DNA of 35,366 bases from Methanocorpusculum sp. GTDB taxonomy: Archaea; Halobacteriota; Methanomicrobia; Methanomicrobiales; Methanocorpusculaceae. Under the pieces are notes generated by a model. It was not told the DNA's origin. It worked only from the letters and a program-made list of their open reading frames with translations, and did not search any database. The first letter of the stretch is position 1. Every line of letters starts with the position of its first letter. Shown piece after piece: positions 2,153 through 19,057 of this stretch. Location of the stretch: the NCBI GenBank assembly GCA_030539655.1, contig JAUNXT010000006.1, positions 1-35,366 of the forward strand. The letters are read 5' to 3'. The position numbers and the translations under genes are program-made.

Positions 2153-3279
2153 GCTGCACCGAAAATCCGTTATCTCCCTGTGCGATGACCGGGGCGTGTG
2201 CGGTTCTTTCCGGATTTAAGGGACTCGCAGTTGTTGTCCACGGGTCATCCGGGTGCTACTACTACCCGAAGGCCCTGTTAAAGACGCCTCTTTACTCCAC
2301 GTTCCTGCTCGAATCCGAGATTGTGCTTGGAACCGTTGACCGGCTCAAAGAGGTGGTGTCCGGACTGGAAAAAGCAGGAAAACCCGTTGCGGTGGTAAAC
2401 ACCTGCGTTCCGGCACTGACCGGCGAAGACCTGTCAAAGGCGTTTGCGCCGGCGACTTCATCGTCAGGGGCTGCAGCCTCCGGGGCGGTCTTTGTCGATG
2501 CACCGGGATACATCGGCGATGCAGCATCAGGTGCTGCTGCTGCATACAAAGCCCTTGACATCCGCCTCAATCCTGAAATCCGCGGGGTAAACATCGACGG
2601 CGTTCTCCCGCTCGACCTGTTTGCGCGGGGAAACCTCCATGAGGCAGAGCGTCTGCTCGCCCTGATGCAGATTCCGTCCGCTGTTACGTTTGCCTCGGAT
2701 ACGTATGCACATCTGAAAGCAGGTGCTGCCCCGTTTACGGTATCCGTCAACCCCTCGTGGGATGCGGGGGTTGGAACAAGCCTCGGATCCTTCCTCTTCC
2801 CTGAGCTGAAAAAGACCGCGGAAGCGCTTGAAAAACGGTTTCCGGATGCGGTCTTTGATGTCTTCTTCGAAGAGCTATCACGCGCCGATGAGCAGATATT
2901 TTACTATGCGGACAAGTATCTCCGGAAGTATGCTCCGCCAAGGGCCGCCGTTGCCTCGGGCCGCGGATACTGCGGATTTGCGGATAAAATGCTTCGAAGG
3001 TACTTCGGCTCCGACGCGGCCTTAAAACTCCCGCGTGAAGAGATAACCGATTACACGGTAATCTCTGAAAAACTGCAGGAGTATAAACCGGACCTCCTGC
3101 TCGGTTCATCCTTTGAAGCGGCAGCGGTCCGGAAAACCCCCTGTGCATTCGTTGGAATAACGCACCCTGACCGGAGCAGAATCTCCATGTCGTCCTCTGC
3201 CGTCTCCGGTATTGAAGGGGGAATTTCATTTATGGAGCGGTGCATAAATGCGCTCATTGACGTAAAGAAGGGGATGTAA
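2149..3279 (+). CDS. NifK/NifD-like nitrogenase-family partner subunit
   Basis: This 376-residue protein looks like the second subunit of the nitrogenase-like complex. Candidate cluster ligands are C11 (SPCAMTGA), C36 (GSSGCYYYP) and C86 (NTCVPALTGEDL). They fall in the same order and spacing class as the cysteines of NifD/K proteins, and two further cysteines (C3, C17) lie near the start. The ESEIVLGTVDRL segment (55-66) corresponds to the region that carries FGG in the partner. The start codon overlaps the stop of the upstream gene by four bases. The two NifD/K-like proteins are clearly diverged from each other, which argues for a heterodimeric or heterotetrameric enzyme rather than a recent duplicate. 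The substrate is unknown. F430 ring reduction or another tetrapyrrole or thioether reduction would fit the family. Confidence 0.7.
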   Translation: MSCTENPLSPCAMTGACAVLSGFKGLAVVVHGSSGCYYYPKALLKTPLYSTFLLESEIVLGTVDRLKEVVSGLEKAGKPVAVVNTCVPALTGEDLSKAFAPATSSSGAAASGAVFVDAPGYIGDAASGAAAAYKALDIRLNPEIRGVNIDGVLPLDLFARGNLHEAERLLALMQIPSAVTFASDTYAHLKAGAAPFTVSVNPSWDAGVGTSLGSFLFPELKKTAEALEKRFPDAVFDVFFEELSRADEQIFYYADKYLRKYAPPRAAVASGRGYCGFADKMLRRYFGSDAALKLPREEITDYTVISEKLQEYKPDLLLGSSFEAAAVRKTPCAFVGITHPDRSRISMSSSAVSGIEGGISFMERCINALIDVKKGM

Positions 3280-3384
3280 ACTCCGCTCACCTCAATCAAC
3301 ACCCTTATCTGTTCGGAAAACATATATGTACTATGTTAACGTGTAGCACACCGGATATCTGTTGCACGAAAAGGAACTGCAGCC

Positions 3385-4674
3385 ATGTTCTGGAATGAAA
3401 AAATAGAGACCTTAAAAGGTCAGGAACTGCGTGACCTTCAGTTAAAGCGGCTGAAGTGGACCATACATCAGACGCAGAACATCCCCTTCTACAAACGGAT
3501 GTTCAAAGATGCGGGGATTCATCCTGACGACATCAAAACGCTTGAAGACATCAGAAAGATACCGTTTACCAACAAATCAGACCTGCGCGAAGGATACCCC
3601 TTCGGATTCCTTGCGGTCCCGATGAACAAAGTAAACCGTATCCATACCACATCAGGTACGACCGGAAAACCCACTGTTGTAGCATACACAAAAGGCGACC
3701 TTGACACATGGGCCGAGCTGCTTGCACGAAACTTCACGATGGCAGGCCTTAAAGCGGGCGACATTTTTCAGAATGCCGCAAACTATGCGCTGTTTACAGG
3801 CGGCCTCGGAATCCACATGGGGGCGGAAAAAATCGGAGCAGCAGTGGTTCCTTCCGGGACCGGCAACACGAAGCGCCAGATAGAGATGATTGAGGACTTT
3901 AAGGTAACAGCGCTTCACTGTACCCCGAGTTATGCGATGCACTTAACAGAAGTAGCCGAGGAGATGAACGCTGATTTATCCTCGCTTAAAGTAGGCTGTT
4001 TCGGCGCCGAGGCCTGGTCTGAAAACACCCGCAGCGACCTTGAGAACCGCCTTGGTGTGGAGGCGTTTGACAGCTACGGCATGAGTGAACTCTTCGGACC
4101 GGGCGTTGCATTTGAGTGCGGGGAACATGACGGTCTCCATATCTGGCACGACAGCTATCTTGTGGAAATCATCGACCCGGAAACAGGAGAGGTGCTGGAG
4201 CCCGGAAACCACGGAGAACTTGTGGTAACCCCGCTTGTCAAAGAGGCAATGCCCCTTCTGCGCTACAGAACACGTGATATAACCATGCTCATGGAAGATG
4301 ACTGTCCGTGCGGCAGGGGTCCGAAGCTTGCCCGCTTCTTTGGAAGATCCGACGACATGCTCACCATCCGCGGAATCAACGTCTTCCCGAGTCAGGTTGA
4401 GCACGTGCTTCGAAGCATCCCTGAAGTAGGTGACCAGTTCATGGTTTACATCGACCGCGGCGAGAGCCACCTTGATGAATTTACCATCCAGGTTGAGATG
4501 AACAAATCTTTCTTCTCGGGCGAACTATCCGACTTTGCGAAGCTGCAGCAAAAGATTGTAAAGACGCTGCAGGATACTATCACCGTGCGTGCGCGTGTGG
4601 AACTCGTTGAGCCCGGCTCTCTTCCCCGCTTCGAAGGAAAAGCAAAAAGGGTAATTGACCGCAGGGTAATATAA
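3385..4674 (+). CDS. PaaK-family acyl-CoA ligase / F390 synthetase-like protein (copy 1)
   Basis: This is an adenylate-forming ligase of 429 residues, the usual length for phenylacetate-CoA ligase. The phosphate-binding loop TSGTTGKPT lies at about 88-97. SYGMSELFGPG marks the A5-type region, YRTRDI the A7 region, and RGINVFPSQVEH leads into the small C-terminal domain. The family includes phenylacetate/indoleacetate-CoA ligases and the coenzyme F390 synthetases of methanogens, which adenylylate F420. Sequence alone does not separate these roles. A paralogue follows after 19 bases, then a two-ACT protein. That PaaK-ACT grouping is typical of aryl-acid activation linked to aromatic amino acid metabolism. 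A palindromic TATA-like element (catatatg) lies near 3320. Confidence 0.85.
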   Translation: MFWNEKIETLKGQELRDLQLKRLKWTIHQTQNIPFYKRMFKDAGIHPDDIKTLEDIRKIPFTNKSDLREGYPFGFLAVPMNKVNRIHTTSGTTGKPTVVAYTKGDLDTWAELLARNFTMAGLKAGDIFQNAANYALFTGGLGIHMGAEKIGAAVVPSGTGNTKRQIEMIEDFKVTALHCTPSYAMHLTEVAEEMNADLSSLKVGCFGAEAWSENTRSDLENRLGVEAFDSYGMSELFGPGVAFECGEHDGLHIWHDSYLVEIIDPETGEVLEPGNHGELVVTPLVKEAMPLLRYRTRDITMLMEDDCPCGRGPKLARFFGRSDDMLTIRGINVFPSQVEHVLRSIPEVGDQFMVYIDRGESHLDEFTIQVEMNKSFFSGELSDFAKLQQKIVKTLQDTITVRARVELVEPGSLPRFEGKAKRVIDRRVI

Positions 4675-4693
4675 TAAGGTACATTTACAGAAT

Positions 4694-5995
4694 ATGGTAT
4701 ACTATAACGAAAAACTTGAGACAATGCCGAAGGAGGAAACGGCCCGCCTCCAGTATCAGGAACTGAAGGTTCTCCTGGACAGAGTCTACCGGAACTCGGC
4801 ATTTTATCACGGAAAAATGAAGGAGGCGGGAGTCACCCCTGATGACATTAAGTCCATTGAGGATATCAGAAAACTCCCGTTCATGAAAAAGACCGATCTC
4901 CGTGACAATTATCCGGATAAGCTGGTTTGTGTTGACCGTGAGGATCTGGTACGGTACCACGTGTCGTCCGGTACAACCGGAAAACCCACGGTTGTCTCCT
5001 ACACAAAAAATGATATTCGGATGTGGGCAGACGCTGTCGCCCGGTCGCTTACCGCCTGCGGACTTGGAAAACATGATGTGATACAGGTCTGTTACGGCTA
5101 CGGGTTATTCACAGGGGGCCTTGGTCTCCACTACGGTGCGGAAAAGCTCGGCGCAGTCGTCATTCCTGCATCAACCGGAAACACCGAGCGCCAGATTGAA
5201 CTGATACAGGACTTAAAGACCACGGCAGTTGCAGGTACTCCCTCATACTTCATTCATATGCTCGATGTGGCAAAGAAGATGGGTATTGATATCAGAAAGG
5301 ATACGAATCTTAGGACTGCAGTCCTTGGTGCAGAGCCGTGGACCGAGGAGATGAGGCGCTATATCCATGAGATATCAGGAGTTACGGCACACAATATCTT
5401 CGGAACATCCGAGCTGTCCGGCCCGATGTTCTGCGACTGTGAGGAGATGCACGGCACACACATCCACAGTGATATAGCCTATACGGAAATCATTGACCCT
5501 GAAACAGGTGAACCCCTTCCCGCCGGAGAAAAAGGGGAACTTACGATTACTGTTCTGAAAAAAGAGGCGTTTCCGATGATCCGCTACCGGTTGGGTGACG
5601 TTTCATCGATTCTCGAAGGGGAGTGTCCCTGCGGCAGAACGAGCCCGAGGATTGACAGAATTACCGGGCGCGTGGATGATATGCTGATTATCCGGGGAAT
5701 CAATGTCTTCCCCTCGGCTGTTGAACATGCGCTGCTGAAAAACCCGTTCCTGACCAGTCACTTTGTCATTGAGGTCTCCCGCAGAGGAAGACTCGATGAT
5801 ATGCTTGTCAGGGTCGAACTAAAGCCCGAGGCAATGACTGACAGCATCAACGGCCTTATGCAGATGCAGGCCATTGTCGAGCGGACTCTCCGTGACGCGC
5901 TGAATGTCGCTGCACATGTCGAGTTATGCCCTCCGAACTCCCTCCCGCGCTTTGAGGGGAAAGCAAAGCGTGTCATTGATAAAAGAGTGATTTAA
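4694..5995 (+). CDS. PaaK-family acyl-CoA ligase / F390 synthetase-like protein (copy 2)
   Basis: This is a 433-residue paralogue of the preceding gene with the same motif order: SSGTTGKPT near 91-99, FGTSELSGP, YRLGDV, and RGINVFPSAVEH, ending in PRFEGKAKRVIDKRVI as copy 1 nearly does. The two proteins are similar throughout but clearly diverged, so the duplication is old and substrate ranges may differ. The gene follows copy 1 after 19 bases and is followed after three bases by the ACT-domain gene, forming one transcription unit. Aryl-acetate:CoA ligation and F420 adenylylation (F390 formation) are both possible. Confidence 0.85.
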   Translation: MVYYNEKLETMPKEETARLQYQELKVLLDRVYRNSAFYHGKMKEAGVTPDDIKSIEDIRKLPFMKKTDLRDNYPDKLVCVDREDLVRYHVSSGTTGKPTVVSYTKNDIRMWADAVARSLTACGLGKHDVIQVCYGYGLFTGGLGLHYGAEKLGAVVIPASTGNTERQIELIQDLKTTAVAGTPSYFIHMLDVAKKMGIDIRKDTNLRTAVLGAEPWTEEMRRYIHEISGVTAHNIFGTSELSGPMFCDCEEMHGTHIHSDIAYTEIIDPETGEPLPAGEKGELTITVLKKEAFPMIRYRLGDVSSILEGECPCGRTSPRIDRITGRVDDMLIIRGINVFPSAVEHALLKNPFLTSHFVIEVSRRGRLDDMLVRVELKPEAMTDSINGLMQMQAIVERTLRDALNVAAHVELCPPNSLPRFEGKAKRVIDKRVI

Positions 5996-5998
5996 ACT

Positions 5999-6433
5999 AT
6001 GAATGAAGAATACATTCTCAAACAGTTGTCAATCTTTTCGGAAAACAAAGCCGGAAAGTTAGCCGCAATAGCCAAGATTTTTCTTGACACCGGCGTTTCG
6101 ATTCAGGCGTTTAACATCGCCGAAGCAAATAATTTCGGGGTAATCCGCGTCATTGTGGACAAGCCCGATGTCGCATTTGAAGCGTTTGCAAAACAGAACT
6201 ATGCACTCAAGTACACAGATGTTCTGGCGATTAAAATGCAGGATGTCCCCGGAGGTCTTTTCGAGGCAGCAAGACTCATTGGAGAGCTTAACATCAACAT
6301 TGAGTATGCATATGCGTTCCGTTCGGGTGAGTATGGTTCACTTATTGTGCGTGTCGCAAACCCCGGAGAAGCTGCGGAAGTTCTTAAGAAAGCAGGTATT
6401 GAACTGATTCCTGCAGTGAATTATCATTTCTGA
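5999..6433 (+). CDS. Tandem ACT-domain protein
   Basis: This is a 144-residue protein made of two ACT-like beta-alpha-beta-beta-alpha-beta units. The first begins with LKQLSIFSENKAGKLAAIAK and the second at about residue 75 with LAIKMQDVPGGLFEAARLIG. ACT modules usually bind amino acids and regulate enzymes. Freestanding two-ACT proteins often accompany PaaK-type ligases and are thought to sense aromatic amino acids. It starts three bases after the upstream PaaK stop, so co-translation is likely. The convergent mptG gene lies 41 bases beyond its end. Confidence 0.8.
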   Translation: MNEEYILKQLSIFSENKAGKLAAIAKIFLDTGVSIQAFNIAEANNFGVIRVIVDKPDVAFEAFAKQNYALKYTDVLAIKMQDVPGGLFEAARLIGELNINIEYAYAFRSGEYGSLIVRVANPGEAAEVLKKAGIELIPAVNYHF

Positions 6434-11181: not shown

Positions 11182-12888
11182 ATGGCAAATGTAGCAAAAA
11201 CCCAGAAACTTTTCCTCGATGCACTGAAGCAGAAGTTCCCGAAGCAGGATGTTGCATCTACAACAACTGAATTCTACAAATTCAACGGAATCCACCAGTC
11301 TGCACGTAAAGAGGAATTCCTGAAAGAAAACAAAGCAATTGTCAAAGCACGTGGAATCTCCATGTACGATCCGGAACACTGCCACTTAGCAGGTGTCCCG
11401 ATGGGTCAGAGACAGCTCATGACCTACGAAGTCTCCGGAACCGGAACCTTCGTTGAGGGTGATGATCTTCACTTTGTTAACAATGCAGCAATGCAGCAGA
11501 TGTGGGATGATATCCGCAGAACTGTAATTGTATCCATGGATATGGCACACCAGACCTTACAGAAGCGTCTTGGTAAAGAAGTTACTCCGGAAACCATTTC
11601 CGAATACCTTCACGTCGTAAACCACGCAATGCCCGGAGGAGCAGTCGTTCAGGAACACATGGTTGAAACCCACCCGGGATTAACCGACGACTGTTACGTC
11701 CGTGTCTTCACCGGTGACCAGGAACTCGCAGACTCTATCGAGTCCCAGTACGTCATTGATGTAGAAAAGCTCTTCCCGAAGAAGCAGGCAGAAGCTCTCC
11801 AGAAGGCAGTTGGAAAGTCCCTCTGGCAGTGTGTCCACATGCCGACCATTGTTGGCCGCACTTGTGATGGAGGTACCACCTCCAGATGGTCTGCAATGCA
11901 GATTGGTATGTCTTTCATCTCCGCATACAGAATGTGCGCAGGTGAGGCAGCAGTCGCAGACTTATCCTTCGCAGCAAAGCACGCAGGTGTCATCAACATG
12001 GCATCCCACTTACCAGCCCGCCGTGCACGCGGTCCGAACGAGCCGGGAGGAATTCTCTTCGGTAACTTCTCCGATATGTGCCAGGCAGACCGTGTAAACC
12101 CGAACGACCCGGCAAAGGCAGCATTAGAAAACGTCGGAGCAGGCGCAATGCTCTTCGACCAGATCTGGCTCGGTTCCTACATGTCCGGTGGTGTCGGATT
12201 CACTCAGTATGCAACTGCAGCATACACCGATAACATCCTCGATGACTTTGTCTACCACGGTATGGACTTCATCAAAGACAAGTACAAGGTTGACTGGAAG
12301 AACCCGTCTCCGAAGGACAAGGTCAAGGCAACCCAGGACGTTGTCAACAAGATTGGTACTGAAGTTACCCTCTACGGTATGGAACAGTACGAACAGTTCC
12401 CGACCATGATGGAAGACCACTTCGGTGGATCCCAGCGTGCAGCAGTTCTTGCAGCAGCATCCGGTATCACCACTTCCATTGCAACCGGTAACTCCAACGC
12501 TGGTCTGAACGCATGGTACTTATCCATGTTACTCCACAAGGACGGATGGTCCAGACTTGGATTCTTCGGTTACGACTTACAGGACCAGTGCGGTTCTGCA
12601 AACTCACTCTCCATCAGACCTGACGAAGGATGTATCGGAGAATTCCGTGGACCGAACTACCCGAACTATGCAATGAACGTCGGTCACCAGGGAGAATACG
12701 CAGCAATCGCAGCAGCAGCCCACTTAGGCCGCGGCGATGCATGGACACTCTCTCCGCTGATTAAGATCTGCTTCGCAGACCCGGCACTGAAGTTCGACTT
12801 CGCCCACCCGCGTGAGGAGTTCGCAAAGGGAGCAATCCGCGAATTCATGCCCGCAGGAGAGCGCGGACTTATCATCCCGGCAAAATAA
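11182..12888 (+). CDS. mcrA: Methyl-coenzyme M reductase alpha subunit
   Basis: This is the catalytic alpha subunit (568 residues) that holds F430 in the active site. The residues modified in characterised enzymes are all conserved: H267 (1-methylhistidine, AAKHAGV), R281 (5-methylarginine, ARRARG), Q418 (2-methylglutamine, GGSQRAA), G463 (thioglycine, FFGYDLQ), D468 and C470 (LQDQCG). The diagnostic [20 protein letters not shown] stretch is present. It is the last gene of the operon and is followed by a hairpin terminator. Nothing suggests an alkane-oxidising variant, and the context is that of a methane-forming enzyme. Confidence 0.98.
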
Positions 12889-12948: not shown

Positions 12949-13422
12949 CATGAAATATCATTTCGCTTATTGTCGACAAACGTCTATTTTCGTACTATAT
13001 TCAAATTAACCAAAAATCCCGTCACTAAATCTGTGCGTGTTTTTTTGACCTTTGGCATTGGGTGCCGCGGGTATTAACGGCTTCGCAGATGCAAAAAGGT
13101 TATTTGTGTTAACATTATTTATTTTGTTTAATATTCGGCAATTACTGTAGGGATATCGCCTGTTCTCTCTAAATATAGAGTAAAAATCCGCAGAGATTAT
13201 ATATTTAGGAGTCGAAATAATAGATATCCACACTTTGTACTCCATTCTTAAGAGTGGTAGCGCAGGATATGTTAATGCATATCCGGGCGCGGGCATGTCA
13301 GTCTGACATGCAATCGTTATACGAACACTTGAGACATCCTTCGTTTCGCTTACCCGCGAAACACATTAGGTTCCGGATAATCCACATATCCGGAAATGAA
13401 AAAACTCAAGGGAGAATCTTAC
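12949..13422 (+). promoter_or_regulatory. mtr promoter and hairpin-rich leader
   Basis: This region is non-coding. A TATA-like element (ttatatattt, about 13197-13206) predicts a transcription start near 13230, giving a leader of about 190 bases. Four perfect-arm hairpins follow. They are GGATATG/CATATCC (13265-13284), GCATGTCAG/CTGACATGC (13293-13311), GTTTCGC/GCGAAAC (13343-13362) and TTCCGGAT/ATCCGGAA (13371-13395). The last ends about 15 bases before the ribosome site of mtrE. Upstream (12949-13190) the sequence is AT-rich and I see no gene. Confidence 0.6.
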
Positions 13423-14307
13423 ATGCAAGAAATCATTATCGGCATTGGAGTAACTGCCCTTGCAGGAGCTCTTGCAGCGGTTGCTGGTGCAGCCGAAGAT
13501 ACTGAGTCCAACATCGGATCACAGGGTGACCCGAACTCTCAGGTTCAGCTCGCACCGCAGATGGGTTACACTCACCGTATCTATAACAAAGCGGTCAGTG
13601 GAGAGCCACCGGCATACACCCTCTGGGTGACACTTGCTTGTGGTGTCGCATGGGCATTCCTTATGATGGGAATGAATGCAATCCTTGCAATCGTTTTAGC
13701 ATCGGCACTTGCAACATTCGTGCAGGGAGTTTACGCAACTACTGCATACCTTGGAAGAACAGCAAGTCTCTCCAAGTTCGGCCAGCCGGTCTTTATTGAT
13801 GTCCTTAAATCAGTAACGTCCGTGACTATGGGTCATGCCTTCGTCGCAATTATCGCGACTGTAGTCATTTGTTACCTTATCGCAACCATTATCGGTCATC
13901 CGTTCAGCTTACCGCTGCTCGGTATCGTCTGGGGTCTTGCCCTTGGTGCAGCAGGTTCCGCAACCGGAAACCCGTACTATGGAAAAGAACGCCAGTACCA
14001 GAACCAGAAATTCGGAGCTGGTGTCCCGATTTCCGCATCCGGAAACATTGTCCGTTATGCGGAAGCAGGTCAGAGAAGCTCTATCGACAACGGATTCTTC
14101 ACCTCCAAGTTCGGAGGTCCGGCGTCAGGTCTTTGTTTCGGTTTAATCGTATTCTTAGAACTCTGGCGTACCATTCTCTTCGAGGATGCCCTCGGAGGAT
14201 GGGGAGCAATCATCGCAGGAGCGGTTATTATTGTTATCTTCTTAATCATTGACCGCTGTGTTGAATCATGGGCACGTAAGAACTACGGCCCGTACACGGA
14301 GGCCTAA
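13423..14307 (+). CDS. mtrE: Tetrahydromethanopterin S-methyltransferase subunit E
   Basis: MtrE is a multi-pass membrane subunit of the Na+-translocating methyl-H4MPT:CoM methyltransferase, and with MtrC and MtrD it forms the ion pathway. The start at 13423 gives 294 residues beginning MQEIIIGIGVTALAGALAAV. It has a gggag site about 10 bases upstream and precedes the family signature AAEDTESNIGSQGDPNSQVQ. An upstream ATG at 13396 overlaps the last leader hairpin region and lacks support. Several hydrophobic helices are visible, and conserved loops such as QLAPQMGYTHRIYNKAVSGE follow the first helix. Confidence 0.95.
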   Translation: MQEIIIGIGVTALAGALAAVAGAAEDTESNIGSQGDPNSQVQLAPQMGYTHRIYNKAVSGEPPAYTLWVTLACGVAWAFLMMGMNAILAIVLASALATFVQGVYATTAYLGRTASLSKFGQPVFIDVLKSVTSVTMGHAFVAIIATVVICYLIATIIGHPFSLPLLGIVWGLALGAAGSATGNPYYGKERQYQNQKFGAGVPISASGNIVRYAEAGQRSSIDNGFFTSKFGGPASGLCFGLIVFLELWRTILFEDALGGWGAIIAGAVIIVIFLIIDRCVESWARKNYGPYTEA

Positions 14308-14309
14308 AC

Positions 14310-15167
14310 ATGAGCGCAATTGCAGCAAAACCGGCAGCAGATGCCGGAGCATTCCGTCCAGTGGCCTCAATTATTGCAATCATACTTGCAATCGTTCTTG
14401 TCGTAATTGCATACTTCCTCGGAAACTTTAACCTGTTACCGGGCGGAGGTGTATTCGCGATTAAGACACTCGGATTAATTATCTTAGGCGCAGCATTAAT
14501 CGCCTTTGGTGTTCACTTCGTCCCTGTCGGAGGAGCTCCGGCAGCAATGGGTCAGGCACCCGGTATTGCAACCGGTGTCGCAATGCTTGCAACTGGTGCA
14601 GGTCTTGCAGGACTCTTCGGAGGAGCATGGGCAGCAGAGTTTGGTTTAGCCGTTTCCCTCGTTGGAGGAGCAATCGGCGGCGGATTAATGATGGCAATCA
14701 CCTGTCTTATGGTGAACATGTCATACGTATTCGGTATGGGTATTCCCCCGGCATCCGGAAAGGTTGAAAAAGACCCGCTTACCGGCTACACTCAGCCTGA
14801 ATTCAAGTCCCAGGGTACTGAAGGACACGGTTTACCGTTCATCTCCTACGTTGGCGGTGTAATCGGAGGTCTTCTCGGTGGTCTTGGCGGAACACTCATC
14901 TACTACGAACTTCTTGAGTTCTACAACGCAGCCCTTCCGGGAGCAGGATTCATCTTTGACTTCGTCCCGCTTTCTGTTGGAATCGCAGGCATCGTTGCAG
15001 TTGGTATGTTCCTTGTTATTGCAGTTCTGTCTGCATACAACATTACCGGAACTATCGAAGGTCCGCACGACCCGAAGTTCAAGAGATTCCCGCGTGCAAT
15101 CGTCGCCGCAATTCTCGCATCTGCAGCATGCGGTCTGGTTGCAATGTTAGTGGTGATGATTCTTTGA
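14310..15167 (+). CDS. mtrD: Tetrahydromethanopterin S-methyltransferase subunit D
   Basis: MtrD is an integral membrane subunit of Mtr with 285 residues and about six hydrophobic segments rich in glycine and alanine. It starts two bases after mtrE with an upstream ggagg site. Recognisable segments are GVHFVPVGGAPAAMGQAPGI and MSYVFGMGIPPASGKVEKDP, the latter a cytoplasmic-side loop typical of MtrD. It is thought to line the Na+ path with MtrC and MtrE. Confidence 0.93.
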   Translation: MSAIAAKPAADAGAFRPVASIIAIILAIVLVVIAYFLGNFNLLPGGGVFAIKTLGLIILGAALIAFGVHFVPVGGAPAAMGQAPGIATGVAMLATGAGLAGLFGGAWAAEFGLAVSLVGGAIGGGLMMAITCLMVNMSYVFGMGIPPASGKVEKDPLTGYTQPEFKSQGTEGHGLPFISYVGGVIGGLLGGLGGTLIYYELLEFYNAALPGAGFIFDFVPLSVGIAGIVAVGMFLVIAVLSAYNITGTIEGPHDPKFKRFPRAIVAAILASAACGLVAMLVVMIL

Positions 15168-15177
15168 GGTGTAAAAA

Positions 15178-16032
15178 ATGTCAGTAAAAGTTGAAGCATC
15201 AGCAGGCGGCGTCCCGCATAACACTGTTATGATTATTGGCGCGCTCATCGCACTGGTATCTCTTTACATCGGTATCGCAGGAAACTACCTCCTTGGTATT
15301 GACTGGTTCGCAGTTTTCGGTGGAATCGCCGTAATCGGAGCCCTTGTCTGGGGTAACAGTACCATCAAAAAGCTCTGCAGCTATGGTATCGGAACTGGTG
15401 TTCCGTCTGCAGGTATGCTTGCATTCGGTGCAGGTACCGCAGCATTCATTGCAGCATCTGCAATCTTCTGTGGATTCGCCTTTGGTATCTGGCTCGTCCC
15501 GATTCTCACTCTCGTCCTTGCACTGATTCTCGGTCTTATCTTTGGATGGATCGCAAACTCAGTTGAAAACATGAAGATTCCGGTCATGACCCGTTCCATT
15601 GCCGAGCTTTCCGCAGTTGGTGCAATCGCACTCGCAGGATTCGCTCTTCTTGCAACCGGCGGAGTTGATCTTCTCAGCATCTCCAGCGCAGGATTCATAG
15701 GTCTTGATGTTGGCAGTTCCTTCCTTGGAGCCGGTATCATCGCAGTTGGATTCATGCTTGGTGCACTCGCACTTCAGCACCCGTTCAACGCATGTTTAGG
15801 CCCTGGAGAGAAGCAGGACAGAACCAACATGTTAGCTCTTGAATGCGGTTTCCTCTCCATGATTGTCATGGCAGTGATCTCCTTCGTATTTGTCTCTCCG
15901 ATTGCAGGATGGATTTCCTTAATCGTAGCAGTTCTCGGATGGATCATTACCTATGCAAAGTATGTTAAGTTATCCAAGCGCGATGCAGCAGCATGGCTTG
16001 ACGCAACGCCGTTTGAGGATAAAGAGGAGTAA
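15178..16032 (+). CDS. mtrC: Tetrahydromethanopterin S-methyltransferase subunit C
   Basis: MtrC is the third large membrane subunit of the methyltransferase (284 residues, multiple hydrophobic helices). It begins MSVKVEASAGGVPHNTVMII with a gaggtg site upstream. Family-like segments include CSYGIGTGVPSAGMLAFGAG and the C-terminal LQHPFNACLGPGEKQDRTNM loop. Its position between mtrD and mtrB is the standard order. Confidence 0.92.
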   Translation: MSVKVEASAGGVPHNTVMIIGALIALVSLYIGIAGNYLLGIDWFAVFGGIAVIGALVWGNSTIKKLCSYGIGTGVPSAGMLAFGAGTAAFIAASAIFCGFAFGIWLVPILTLVLALILGLIFGWIANSVENMKIPVMTRSIAELSAVGAIALAGFALLATGGVDLLSISSAGFIGLDVGSSFLGAGIIAVGFMLGALALQHPFNACLGPGEKQDRTNMLALECGFLSMIVMAVISFVFVSPIAGWISLIVAVLGWIITYAKYVKLSKRDAAAWLDATPFEDKEE

Positions 16033-16045
16033 GGAGGAATAAATT

Positions 16046-16351
16046 ATGGGATATATTTACGTATTACCTGAGTTCGGTCTTGTTGCAGACCCGGTTGCCG
16101 GTGTTGTAACTACCGCCGGAATCTCCTACAAACCTATCCTCGATCAGGTTGAAGAGCTCGAGATGATCGCAGACGATCTTGTCGGCATGCTCTCCGGCGA
16201 AGGAAAAATCATGAACAGTTTCCCCGGACGTGAGAAATCTCTCTCAATTGCCGGTAAGACCACTGCATTCTGGTATGGCTTAGTTATCGGTCTCTTCGTG
16301 GCATTTATCGTCACGTTCTTCCTTGTCTTTGGAGGGTTTATCGCATGGTAG
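16046..16351 (+). CDS. mtrB: Tetrahydromethanopterin S-methyltransferase subunit B
   Basis: MtrB is a small subunit with a single C-terminal membrane anchor (101 residues). The soluble N-terminal part is [19 protein letters not shown], and the anchor covers about residues 75-100 ([20 protein letters not shown]). A strong ribosome site (aaggagg) lies upstream. The gene overlaps mtrA by seven bases. Confidence 0.92.
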
Positions 16352-17085
16352 ATAAGAAATCTCCGGCATCCGGATGGCCGATTATTCAGGGTGACTACCA
16401 CACAGGCGATGCAAACAGCCCTGTTGCAGTCATCACTATGGGATCTCACCTGGACGAAGCAGGCATCTGTGCCGCAGGCGCAGCACTTGCCGGTTCCTGT
16501 AAGACTGAGAACCTTGGTATCGAAAAAATTGTTGCAAACATCATTTCCAACCCGAACATCCGCTTCGTAGTTCTCTGTGGTACTGAAGTTAAAGGACACT
16601 TATCCGGTCAGTCCATTGAGTCCATGCACAAGAACGGTGTTGAGGGCGGAAAGATTGTCGGATCGAAAGGAGCAATTCCGTTCCTTGAAAACCTGACCGC
16701 TGAACACATCAAACGCTTCCAGGAGCAGGTTGAACTCGTCAACATCATGGAAACCGAAGACCTCGGTGTCATCGGTGCCAAGATCAACGAGCTCAAAGGC
16801 AAAGACCCGGGGGCATTCGGTGCAGACCCGATTGTTGTTCAGATCTCTGAAGGAGACGATGCAGCAGCAGGAGGAGATGGAGCAGAAGGTGAAGAAGTCG
16901 AATTATCCGGTGACCTCGCATTAATCCACTCCCGCATGAAGAATATCCAGATGATGGTGACTGATATCGGTTACCGCAACAGATTTGCATCCGGTGTTTA
17001 TGGTGGAAAGATTGAAGGACTTATGATTGGTCTTGTAATCTCTCTCATTATCTTTGGAGCAATCCTTACAATGTGGGGTATCTAA
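16345..17085 (+). CDS. mtrA: Tetrahydromethanopterin S-methyltransferase subunit A (corrinoid subunit, copy 1)
   Basis: MtrA carries the cobamide that accepts the methyl group from methyl-H4MPT and passes it to coenzyme M. The 246 residues comprise a soluble corrinoid domain (about 1-170), an acidic linker rich in D, A, G and E, and a C-terminal anchor (about 222-245). H85 in [11 protein letters not shown] corresponds to the known lower axial cobalt ligand. Bases 16360-16811 are identical to 17299-17750 in the downstream fusion gene, so both copies carry the same corrinoid domain. The start overlaps mtrB by seven bases. Confidence 0.95.
16360..16811 (+). repeat. 452-bp perfect direct repeat, copy 1 (within mtrA)
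   Basis: Comparison by eye shows every base identical to 17299-17750 (offset 939). The tract is bounded by a synonymous difference at 16359 (AAA versus AAG) and another at 16812 (GGG versus GGA). It covers nearly the whole corrinoid domain. Confidence 0.9.
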
Positions 17086-17086
17086 A

Positions 17087-17284
17087 ATGGCAGCACCATC
17101 AATTAGAATGGCAGCCATCAATAAAATGATGGATGACATCAGATATAAGAGTCAGATTCTTGTCAGATCCAACAAGATTGCCTCTGCAATCTCCGGTAAT
17201 GGTATTGTCGGACTTGCAATTGGCATTGTTGTTGCTCTTGCATTTGTTCTCATACCGGTCATTATCTTCGGAGGGGTGTTCTAA
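17087..17284 (+). CDS. mtrF: Tetrahydromethanopterin S-methyltransferase subunit F
   Basis: MtrF is a small single-anchor subunit of 65 residues. The start at 17087 gives [18 protein letters not shown] and has a gggg-rich site about 10 bases upstream, one base after the mtrA stop. An earlier in-frame start would lie inside mtrA. The conserved soluble part [20 protein letters not shown] is followed by an anchor near 42-63. The stop overlaps the next gene by one base. Confidence 0.9.
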
Positions 17285-18021
17285 TGGCGGACAAAAAGTC
17301 TCCGGCATCCGGATGGCCGATTATTCAGGGTGACTACCACACAGGCGATGCAAACAGCCCTGTTGCAGTCATCACTATGGGATCTCACCTGGACGAAGCA
17401 GGCATCTGTGCCGCAGGCGCAGCACTTGCCGGTTCCTGTAAGACTGAGAACCTTGGTATCGAAAAAATTGTTGCAAACATCATTTCCAACCCGAACATCC
17501 GCTTCGTAGTTCTCTGTGGTACTGAAGTTAAAGGACACTTATCCGGTCAGTCCATTGAGTCCATGCACAAGAACGGTGTTGAGGGCGGAAAGATTGTCGG
17601 ATCGAAAGGAGCAATTCCGTTCCTTGAAAACCTGACCGCTGAACACATCAAACGCTTCCAGGAGCAGGTTGAACTCGTCAACATCATGGAAACCGAAGAC
17701 CTCGGTGTCATCGGTGCCAAGATCAACGAGCTCAAAGGCAAAGACCCGGGAGCATTCGGTGCAGACCCGATCGTTGTCCAGATTTCCGAGGGCGACGAAG
17801 GTGGAAGTGATGCAAGTACAGTTGCTACATCAAATCCGCAGATTCTCGAAATCGAGAAGCGTTTAGACGCAGTCGAAAAGAAGATTGAGTTTACTGACGC
17901 AGAAGTTGCGATGCGTGTAGGAAGAAAAATCGGACGTGACATCGGTGTTCTCTACGGTCTCGTAGCTGGAATCATCGCATTCCTGATTATTTACTTCTGG
18001 ATGTACGTCTTATTCATCTAA
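17284..18021 (+). CDS. MtrA-MtrG fusion: second corrinoid domain joined to subunit G
   Basis: This gene sits exactly where mtrG normally lies (between mtrF and mtrH), but its 245 residues are a hybrid. Residues 1-170 are a near-perfect copy of the MtrA corrinoid domain, including the cobalt ligand H85. After a short linker ([16 protein letters not shown]), residues about 180-245 are MtrG-like: [19 protein letters not shown], then the family signature [14 protein letters not shown] and a C-terminal membrane helix. No separate mtrG is present in the operon. The frame is open throughout and the translational coupling to mtrF is intact, so the fusion looks functional. Each Mtr protomer could then carry two cobamide domains. 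Alternatively, only one of the two copies is loaded. Confidence 0.9.
17299..17750 (+). repeat. 452-bp perfect direct repeat, copy 2 (within the MtrA-MtrG fusion gene)
   Basis: This is identical to 16360-16811 at every base, including all third codon positions. Beyond it the two copies differ at scattered synonymous sites for about 40 bases and then become unrelated at the acidic linker. Confidence 0.9.
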
Positions 18022-18034
18022 ATGAGGTGCCAAT

Positions 18035-19057
18035 ATGTTCAAATTTGAAAAAGAACAACAGGTCTTTGACTTTAACGGAACTAAGATTGGCGGTCAGCCC
18101 GGAGAATACCCGCGCGTCATGTCCCCGTCAATCTTCTACAACAAACACGAGATTGTCTTAAACGACAAGACTGGTGAGATTGACAAAGCAAAAGCAGAAG
18201 CTCTCTGGAACCGCTGCCAGGAATTAACCGACATTACCGGTAACAAATTCTTCCTGCAGATTTTAGCAGAGCACGGAGAAGCATTCGAGTCCTACTTTAA
18301 CTGGTTCGACTCCATCGACAACAAGACTGCCTTCCTTATGGACTCTTCCGCACCGGAAGCACTTGTTCACGCAACCAAATACGTTACTGAAGTTGGTCTT
18401 GCAGACAGAGCCATCTACAACTCTATCAACGGATCCATCCTTCCGGAAAACATCCAGGCACTCAAAGAGTCCGATGTTAACTCCGCAATCGTTCTTGCAT
18501 TCAACCCGGGAGACCCGAGCATTGCAGGACGTGAGAAGACTTTAGTCGACGGCGGTGTTGCAGGTCAGGAAAAGGGTATGCTTCAGATTGCAGAAGAATG
18601 CGGTATCACCCGCCCGATTCTCGACTCTGCAGCAACTCCGCTCGGACTTGGTGCATTCGGTTCCTTCCGTGAGATTCTCGCATGCAAAGCAATCCACGGT
18701 CTGCCGACCGGTGGTGCATACCACAACATGACTGTTTCCTGGACCTGGCTGAAACGCTGGAGAAAGAACGTCTTATCCGACAGATACAAGGAATTACCGC
18801 TTCTCGCAGAACAGATGTGCCACCACCACTTCGGCGGCATCGACGGTATCCGCCAGACTGCATGGTCCGCACCGGATATCGGATGTAACATCATGGCAAT
18901 GACCCTTGGTGCAGATCTTATCATGTACGGTCCAATCGAGAACATGGAGGGGGCAGCAACTGCATCTGCATTCTGTGATATTGTCTTAGCTGAAGCATTC
19001 AAGGACTTCGGAGGAACTCCGGGAGTTACCGACGGTCCGATTGACAAGCTTATCTAA
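18035..19057 (+). CDS. mtrH: Tetrahydromethanopterin S-methyltransferase subunit H
   Basis: MtrH is the peripheral catalytic subunit that transfers the methyl group from methyl-H4MPT to the cobamide of MtrA. It is 340 residues, begins MFKFEKEQQVFDFNGTKIGG, has no membrane segment and a pterin-binding TIM-barrel-type sequence. Conserved parts include GGQPGEYPRVM near the start and HNMTVSWTWLKRWRKNV in the second half. A gaggtg site precedes the ATG. It is the last gene of the operon, followed by a hairpin terminator. Confidence 0.95.
   Translation: MFKFEKEQQVFDFNGTKIGGQPGEYPRVMSPSIFYNKHEIVLNDKTGEIDKAKAEALWNRCQELTDITGNKFFLQILAEHGEAFESYFNWFDSIDNKTAFLMDSSAPEALVHATKYVTEVGLADRAIYNSINGSILPENIQALKESDVNSAIVLAFNPGDPSIAGREKTLVDGGVAGQEKGMLQIAEECGITRPILDSAATPLGLGAFGSFREILACKAIHGLPTGGAYHNMTVSWTWLKRWRKNVLSDRYKELPLLAEQMCHHHFGGIDGIRQTAWSAPDIGCNIMAMTLGADLIMYGPIENMEGAATASAFCDIVLAEAFKDFGGTPGVTDGPIDKLI

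Follow-up and report, generated by a model that had tools for sequence, protein, structure and literature searches.

Does the Na+-pumping methyl-H4MPT:CoM methyltransferase (Mtr) of the Methanomicrobiales, a major order of methanogens, have one corrinoid carrier per protomer or two? The question is raised by a stretch of 35,366 nucleotides from Methanocorpusculum sp., referred to here as the window, in which the slot normally filled by mtrG encodes an MtrA corrinoid domain fused to MtrG. Hydrogenotrophic methanogenesis conserves energy only at the step catalyzed by Mtr (PMC12774963). The window harbors a full mtr operon, arranged mtrE-D-C-B-A-F-[A–G]-H, with each gene assigned by Pfam:

13396..14307, + strand: mtrE (Pfam MtrE, E 1.8e-126)
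14310..15167, + strand: mtrD (Pfam MtrD, E 4.2e-91)
15178..16032, + strand: mtrC (Pfam MtrC, E 2.9e-63)
16046..16351, + strand: mtrB (Pfam MtrB, E 1.1e-30)
16345..17085, + strand: mtrA-1, a normal MtrA with corrinoid domain and its own C-terminal membrane anchor (Pfam MtrA at residues 4-173)
17087..17284, + strand: mtrF (Pfam MtrF, E 2.5e-19)
17284..18021, + strand: mtrA-2b, the fusion, with its MtrA corrinoid domain at residues 1-~170 and MtrG at ~180-245, from Pfam and AlphaFold2
18035..19057, + strand: mtrH (Pfam MtrH, E 1.6e-93)

Just upstream of the operon lies a 568-aa open reading frame (11182-12888) whose product, judged by eye, resembles the methyl-coenzyme M reductase alpha subunit (mcrA).

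The mtrA-1 product has 246 aa and MtrA as its only Pfam domain (E 9.7e-84). The 245-aa fusion product matches MtrA at residues 4–173 (E 6.7e-84) and MtrG at residues 180–237 (E 3.8e-22), both scores far beyond the curated cut-offs; it has lost the MtrA anchor and carries MtrG at the C-terminus instead, and its gene sits between mtrF and mtrH. These assignments bear out an earlier note, made from the sequence alone, which had described a hybrid of about 26 kDa (the predicted mass is 26.0 kDa) in the mtrG slot and a retained stand-alone mtrA. The span considered in that note (16345–18021) also includes mtrF (17087–17284), which was not named. The note was also right that the operon has no separate mtrG. 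Across the whole genome, represented by an assembly that is 76.7% complete, the fusion is the single MtrG match, both MtrA matches lie in the window operon, and a second, stand-alone mtrG, which the note had seen as a threat to its reading, was sought and not found.

The MtrA–MtrG fusion is already known, having been published in 2015. Wang et al. (G3, PMC4632066) named the fusion of Methanomicrobiales mtrA-2b, included Methanocorpusculum labreanum in their species set, and explained the near-identity of the mtrA copies by long-lasting gene conversion; the supposition in the note that the arrangement was undescribed is incorrect. A follow-up study in 2018 kept mtrA among the genes under long-lasting concerted evolution and mentioned the fusion (PMC6053082). 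Like mtrA-2b (PMC4632066), the window gene encodes an anchorless second MtrA domain fused to MtrG, lies between mtrF and mtrH, and is homogenized with mtrA-1. All of the defining features of mtrA-2b that sequence can test are present in the window, which does not differ structurally and adds a further genome for this order and genus. It is virtually certain that the fusion gene is mtrA-2b, the MtrA–MtrG subunit of Mtr. The analysis presented here adds a larger survey, a phylum-wide contrast, a sharp conversion tract, and a test of selection where conversion has lapsed.

A related fusion, mtrA-2a, joins MtrA to MtrF in Methanococcales and Methanocella arvoryzae (PMC4632066). It likewise places a second MtrA domain on a single-helix stalk subunit and undergoes concerted evolution, but the partner is MtrF, the gene is placed between mtrA-1 and mtrG, and an independent origin has been proposed (PMC4632066). 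The mtrA-2a type was found in Methanocella sp. PtaU1.Bin125 (L087) with an A-domain 100% identical to mtrA-1, at the nucleotide level as well. In L087 the MtrA–MtrF fusion is followed by two tandem stand-alone MtrG genes (5760-5960 and 5996-6313), and a genome from another family (G233) also has two adjacent MtrG matches.

The fusion is the normal MtrG of Methanomicrobiales and is not peculiar to this genome. An MtrG match was found in 163 of the 199 Methanomicrobiales genomes surveyed, one apiece, with frames mostly of 200–320 aa. Every match inspected was either a long frame or a frame meeting a contig end or N gap. Sixteen short-frame matches were inspected as candidate stand-alone genes and were ruled out, since 14 reach a contig end and two reach an N gap in the MtrA repeat. 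The survey of MtrG that the note had proposed finds it fused to MtrA in the sampled Methanomicrobiales wherever the contig continues. In the phylum sample, the members of Methanomicrobiales have long MtrG frames or frames running off the contig, whereas outside the order MtrG stands alone in frames of 67–140 aa; Methanoperedens loci encode mtrA, mtrF, and mtrG all separately. The arrangement A–F–[A–G]–H was found in named contigs of Methanocorpusculum, Methanocalculus, Methanomicrobium, Methanoculleus, and Methanoregula, and no lineage with a stand-alone MtrG nested inside Methanomicrobiales was seen in the survey. This clean split, fused inside the order and stand-alone elsewhere in the phylum, indicates a trait shared by the order. 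In a contig filed as 'Bacilli bacterium' (L040, JAQVAY010000069.1) the mtr operon is of Methanocorpusculum type and includes the fusion; the contig is apparently mis-binned.

The two MtrA domains of the window are nearly identical. Within the first 171 residues mtrA-1 and the fusion protein differ only at residue 2 (V2A is the only protein-changing difference in codons 1–171), and residue 172 also differs (D/E). The genes share an identical 452-bp stretch, corresponding to nt 16–467 of each; five mismatches fall within the first 15 nt, and mismatches occur again from nt 468:

16360..16811, + strand: conversion tract, mtrA-1 copy, 452 bp, identical to 17299-17750
17299..17750, + strand: conversion tract, mtrA-2b copy, 452 bp, with mismatches at both edges, mostly silent

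An identical stretch of this kind, enclosed by divergent sequence, is the footprint of a fresh gene conversion. Relatives were compared in search of a donor, and over the tract none of the loci compared exceeded 84% identity. On the nucleotide tree the two window copies group as sisters (support 0.998), as do the two mtrA copies in 28 of the 40 genomes that it includes (27 from Methanomicrobiales plus Methanocella L087). Mean nucleotide identity is 95.3% for paralog pairs versus 75.2% between orthologous mtrA-1 (n=40 Methanomicrobiales pairs).

This near-exact repeat breaks many draft assemblies, as seen in the short frames at contig ends, the two N gaps, and a B-[A-G]-H collapse in L047. The note had named an assembly artefact of a repeat as grounds for refutation; a repeat-induced duplication would have put an MtrA domain ahead of mtrG. 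The likelihood of such an artefact is negligible. The same operon architecture recurs in single-contig genomes (e.g., G042/L132, G004/L008, and G015/L002) and across families of the order, the window copies differ by substitutions at both tract edges, and the closed genomes already refute the artefact. The L047 layout, in which the A–G fusion and then mtrH come directly after mtrB and both mtrA-1 and mtrF are missing (2698-4896 of a Methanoregula MAG contig), is more likely due to assembly repeat collapse than to a real deletion between direct repeats. The sister copies on the tree are also what independent recent duplications in each species would produce, rather than one old fusion followed by gene conversion. 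However, the fusion type and operon position are alike across families, the identity tract of the window is internal and flanked by divergence, and Methanomicrobium and a ruminant/deer Methanocorpusculum group have separate A-1 and A-2 clades, which makes recent duplication very improbable. A single fusion, fixed in Methanomicrobiales and with copies homogenized by gene conversion, is very likely.

Gene conversion would keep both MtrA domains equivalent. Both copies of every intact Methanomicrobiales pair retain His85 and Glu55, which correspond to the cobalt ligand His84 and its partner Glu54 of M. marburgensis, and both window copies have GAIPFLEN at residue 109 (the ligand, its partner, and the GAIPF..EN meander, numbered in PMC4915002, are features of Group I MtrA, the corrinoid carrier of Mtr). 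Since conversion alone could also keep these residues intact in a copy that had become redundant, lineages in which conversion has lapsed are the informative cases. Judging from divergence, conversion has lapsed in two Methanomicrobium genomes (L048 and L050) and in the single-contig L132, of the same genus as the window. In these genomes the copies differ at 17–27 amino acids, with dS of 0.81–0.97, dN of 0.07–0.10, and dN/dS of about 0.07–0.12, yet loops 52–59, 79–90, and 109–117, which hold and present the corrinoid in MtrA, are unchanged between copies. On the nucleotide tree Methanomicrobium has one clade of A-1 copies and another of A-2 copies, and the copies of the L132 group are also non-sister, with less tidy branching. 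The low dN/dS, unchanged ligand loops, and non-sister copies point to purifying selection acting independently on the second copy, whose MtrA domain probably functions as a carrier.

A second tethered carrier also appears to fit the known architecture of Mtr. In the cryo-EM structure from M. marburgensis (PNAS 2024, PMC10998594; PDB 8Q3V), the central stalk contains long helices, one each from MtrA, MtrB, MtrF, and MtrG, and the N-termini of all four anchors lie at its cytoplasmic end; the corrinoid domain of MtrA was proposed to swing between MtrH and MtrCDE by means of a disordered linker. The structure from M. mazei (Nat Commun 2025, PMC12774963) has one MtrH dimer per protomer. All subunits of these canonical complexes and their operon order are recognizable in the window; however, the canonical enzyme has one corrinoid domain per protomer, and its MtrG is short, helical, and not fused to another subunit. 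Neither cryo-EM paper mentions a fusion, according to a term search, and nothing usable came from a search of the literature for proteomics in which the fusion had been detected in Methanospirillum. The MtrG part of the fusion matches the MtrG chains of 8Q3V and 9QTQ in sequence. An AlphaFold2 model of the fusion, built from only 20 sequences and with a mean pLDDT of 74.5, predicts a folded domain to residue ~166, a low-confidence segment at 170-189, and one helix at 185-244.

It is likely, taking the explanation as a whole, that mtrA-2b serves as the standard MtrG and adds a second tethered corrinoid domain to each protomer. The MtrG helix of the fusion would sit where MtrG normally does, in the stalk at the center of the trimer. 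Since the second corrinoid domain is attached at the N-terminus of this helix, and the N-termini are all cytoplasmic, it would hang from a flexible linker at the cytoplasmic tip of the stalk, beside the MtrA-1 domain. Both domains would be methylated at the MtrH dimer and pass the methyl group to CoM at MtrCDE, and a trimer would have six carriers instead of three, or one per MtrH subunit. That two carriers would fit sterically into each protomer is suggested by the published cryo-EM geometry, by analogy, as the structures compared are from other orders (M. marburgensis and M. mazei).

A skeptical reading treats the second MtrA domain as a passive tag on MtrG, or as an extension with a structural role, which stays similar to mtrA-1 through conversion only and does not carry methyl groups. 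The active-site residues would presumably survive by conversion whatever the function, but the purifying selection and intact loops of L048, L050, and L132 make this reading quite improbable. Alternatively, the fusion may offer another anchor or a higher dosage: both products would work, but a protomer would never use its two MtrA domains together, and the duplication would raise the local concentration of carrier or the robustness to corrinoid loss. The similar lengths of the linkers and the almost identical domains of most species are in keeping with this alternative. Against it stands the order-wide fixation of the fusion without a stand-alone MtrG; as every MtrG in the order brings a second domain with it, that domain is not optional. 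An anchor or dosage role is considered unlikely, though less so than a passive tag. Two working carriers per protomer seem rather probable. The second cobamide carrier that the earlier note inferred is plausible given the conserved ligand residues, the apparent independent selection, the similar-length linker, and the compatible published geometry. A more speculative reading, considered rather unlikely, is that six corrinoid domains match six MtrH subunits in a two-carrier machine, in which the two carriers of each protomer would alternate, with one methylated at MtrH during demethylation of the other at the Na+ pore of MtrCDE.

The interest of the fusion is limited to the question of carrier stoichiometry. 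If the carriers do alternate, the diverged lineages, Methanomicrobium and some Methanocorpusculum, would have begun to specialize both carriers. If the number of carriers differs between orders, a one-carrier coupling scheme would not be directly transferable to Methanomicrobiales.
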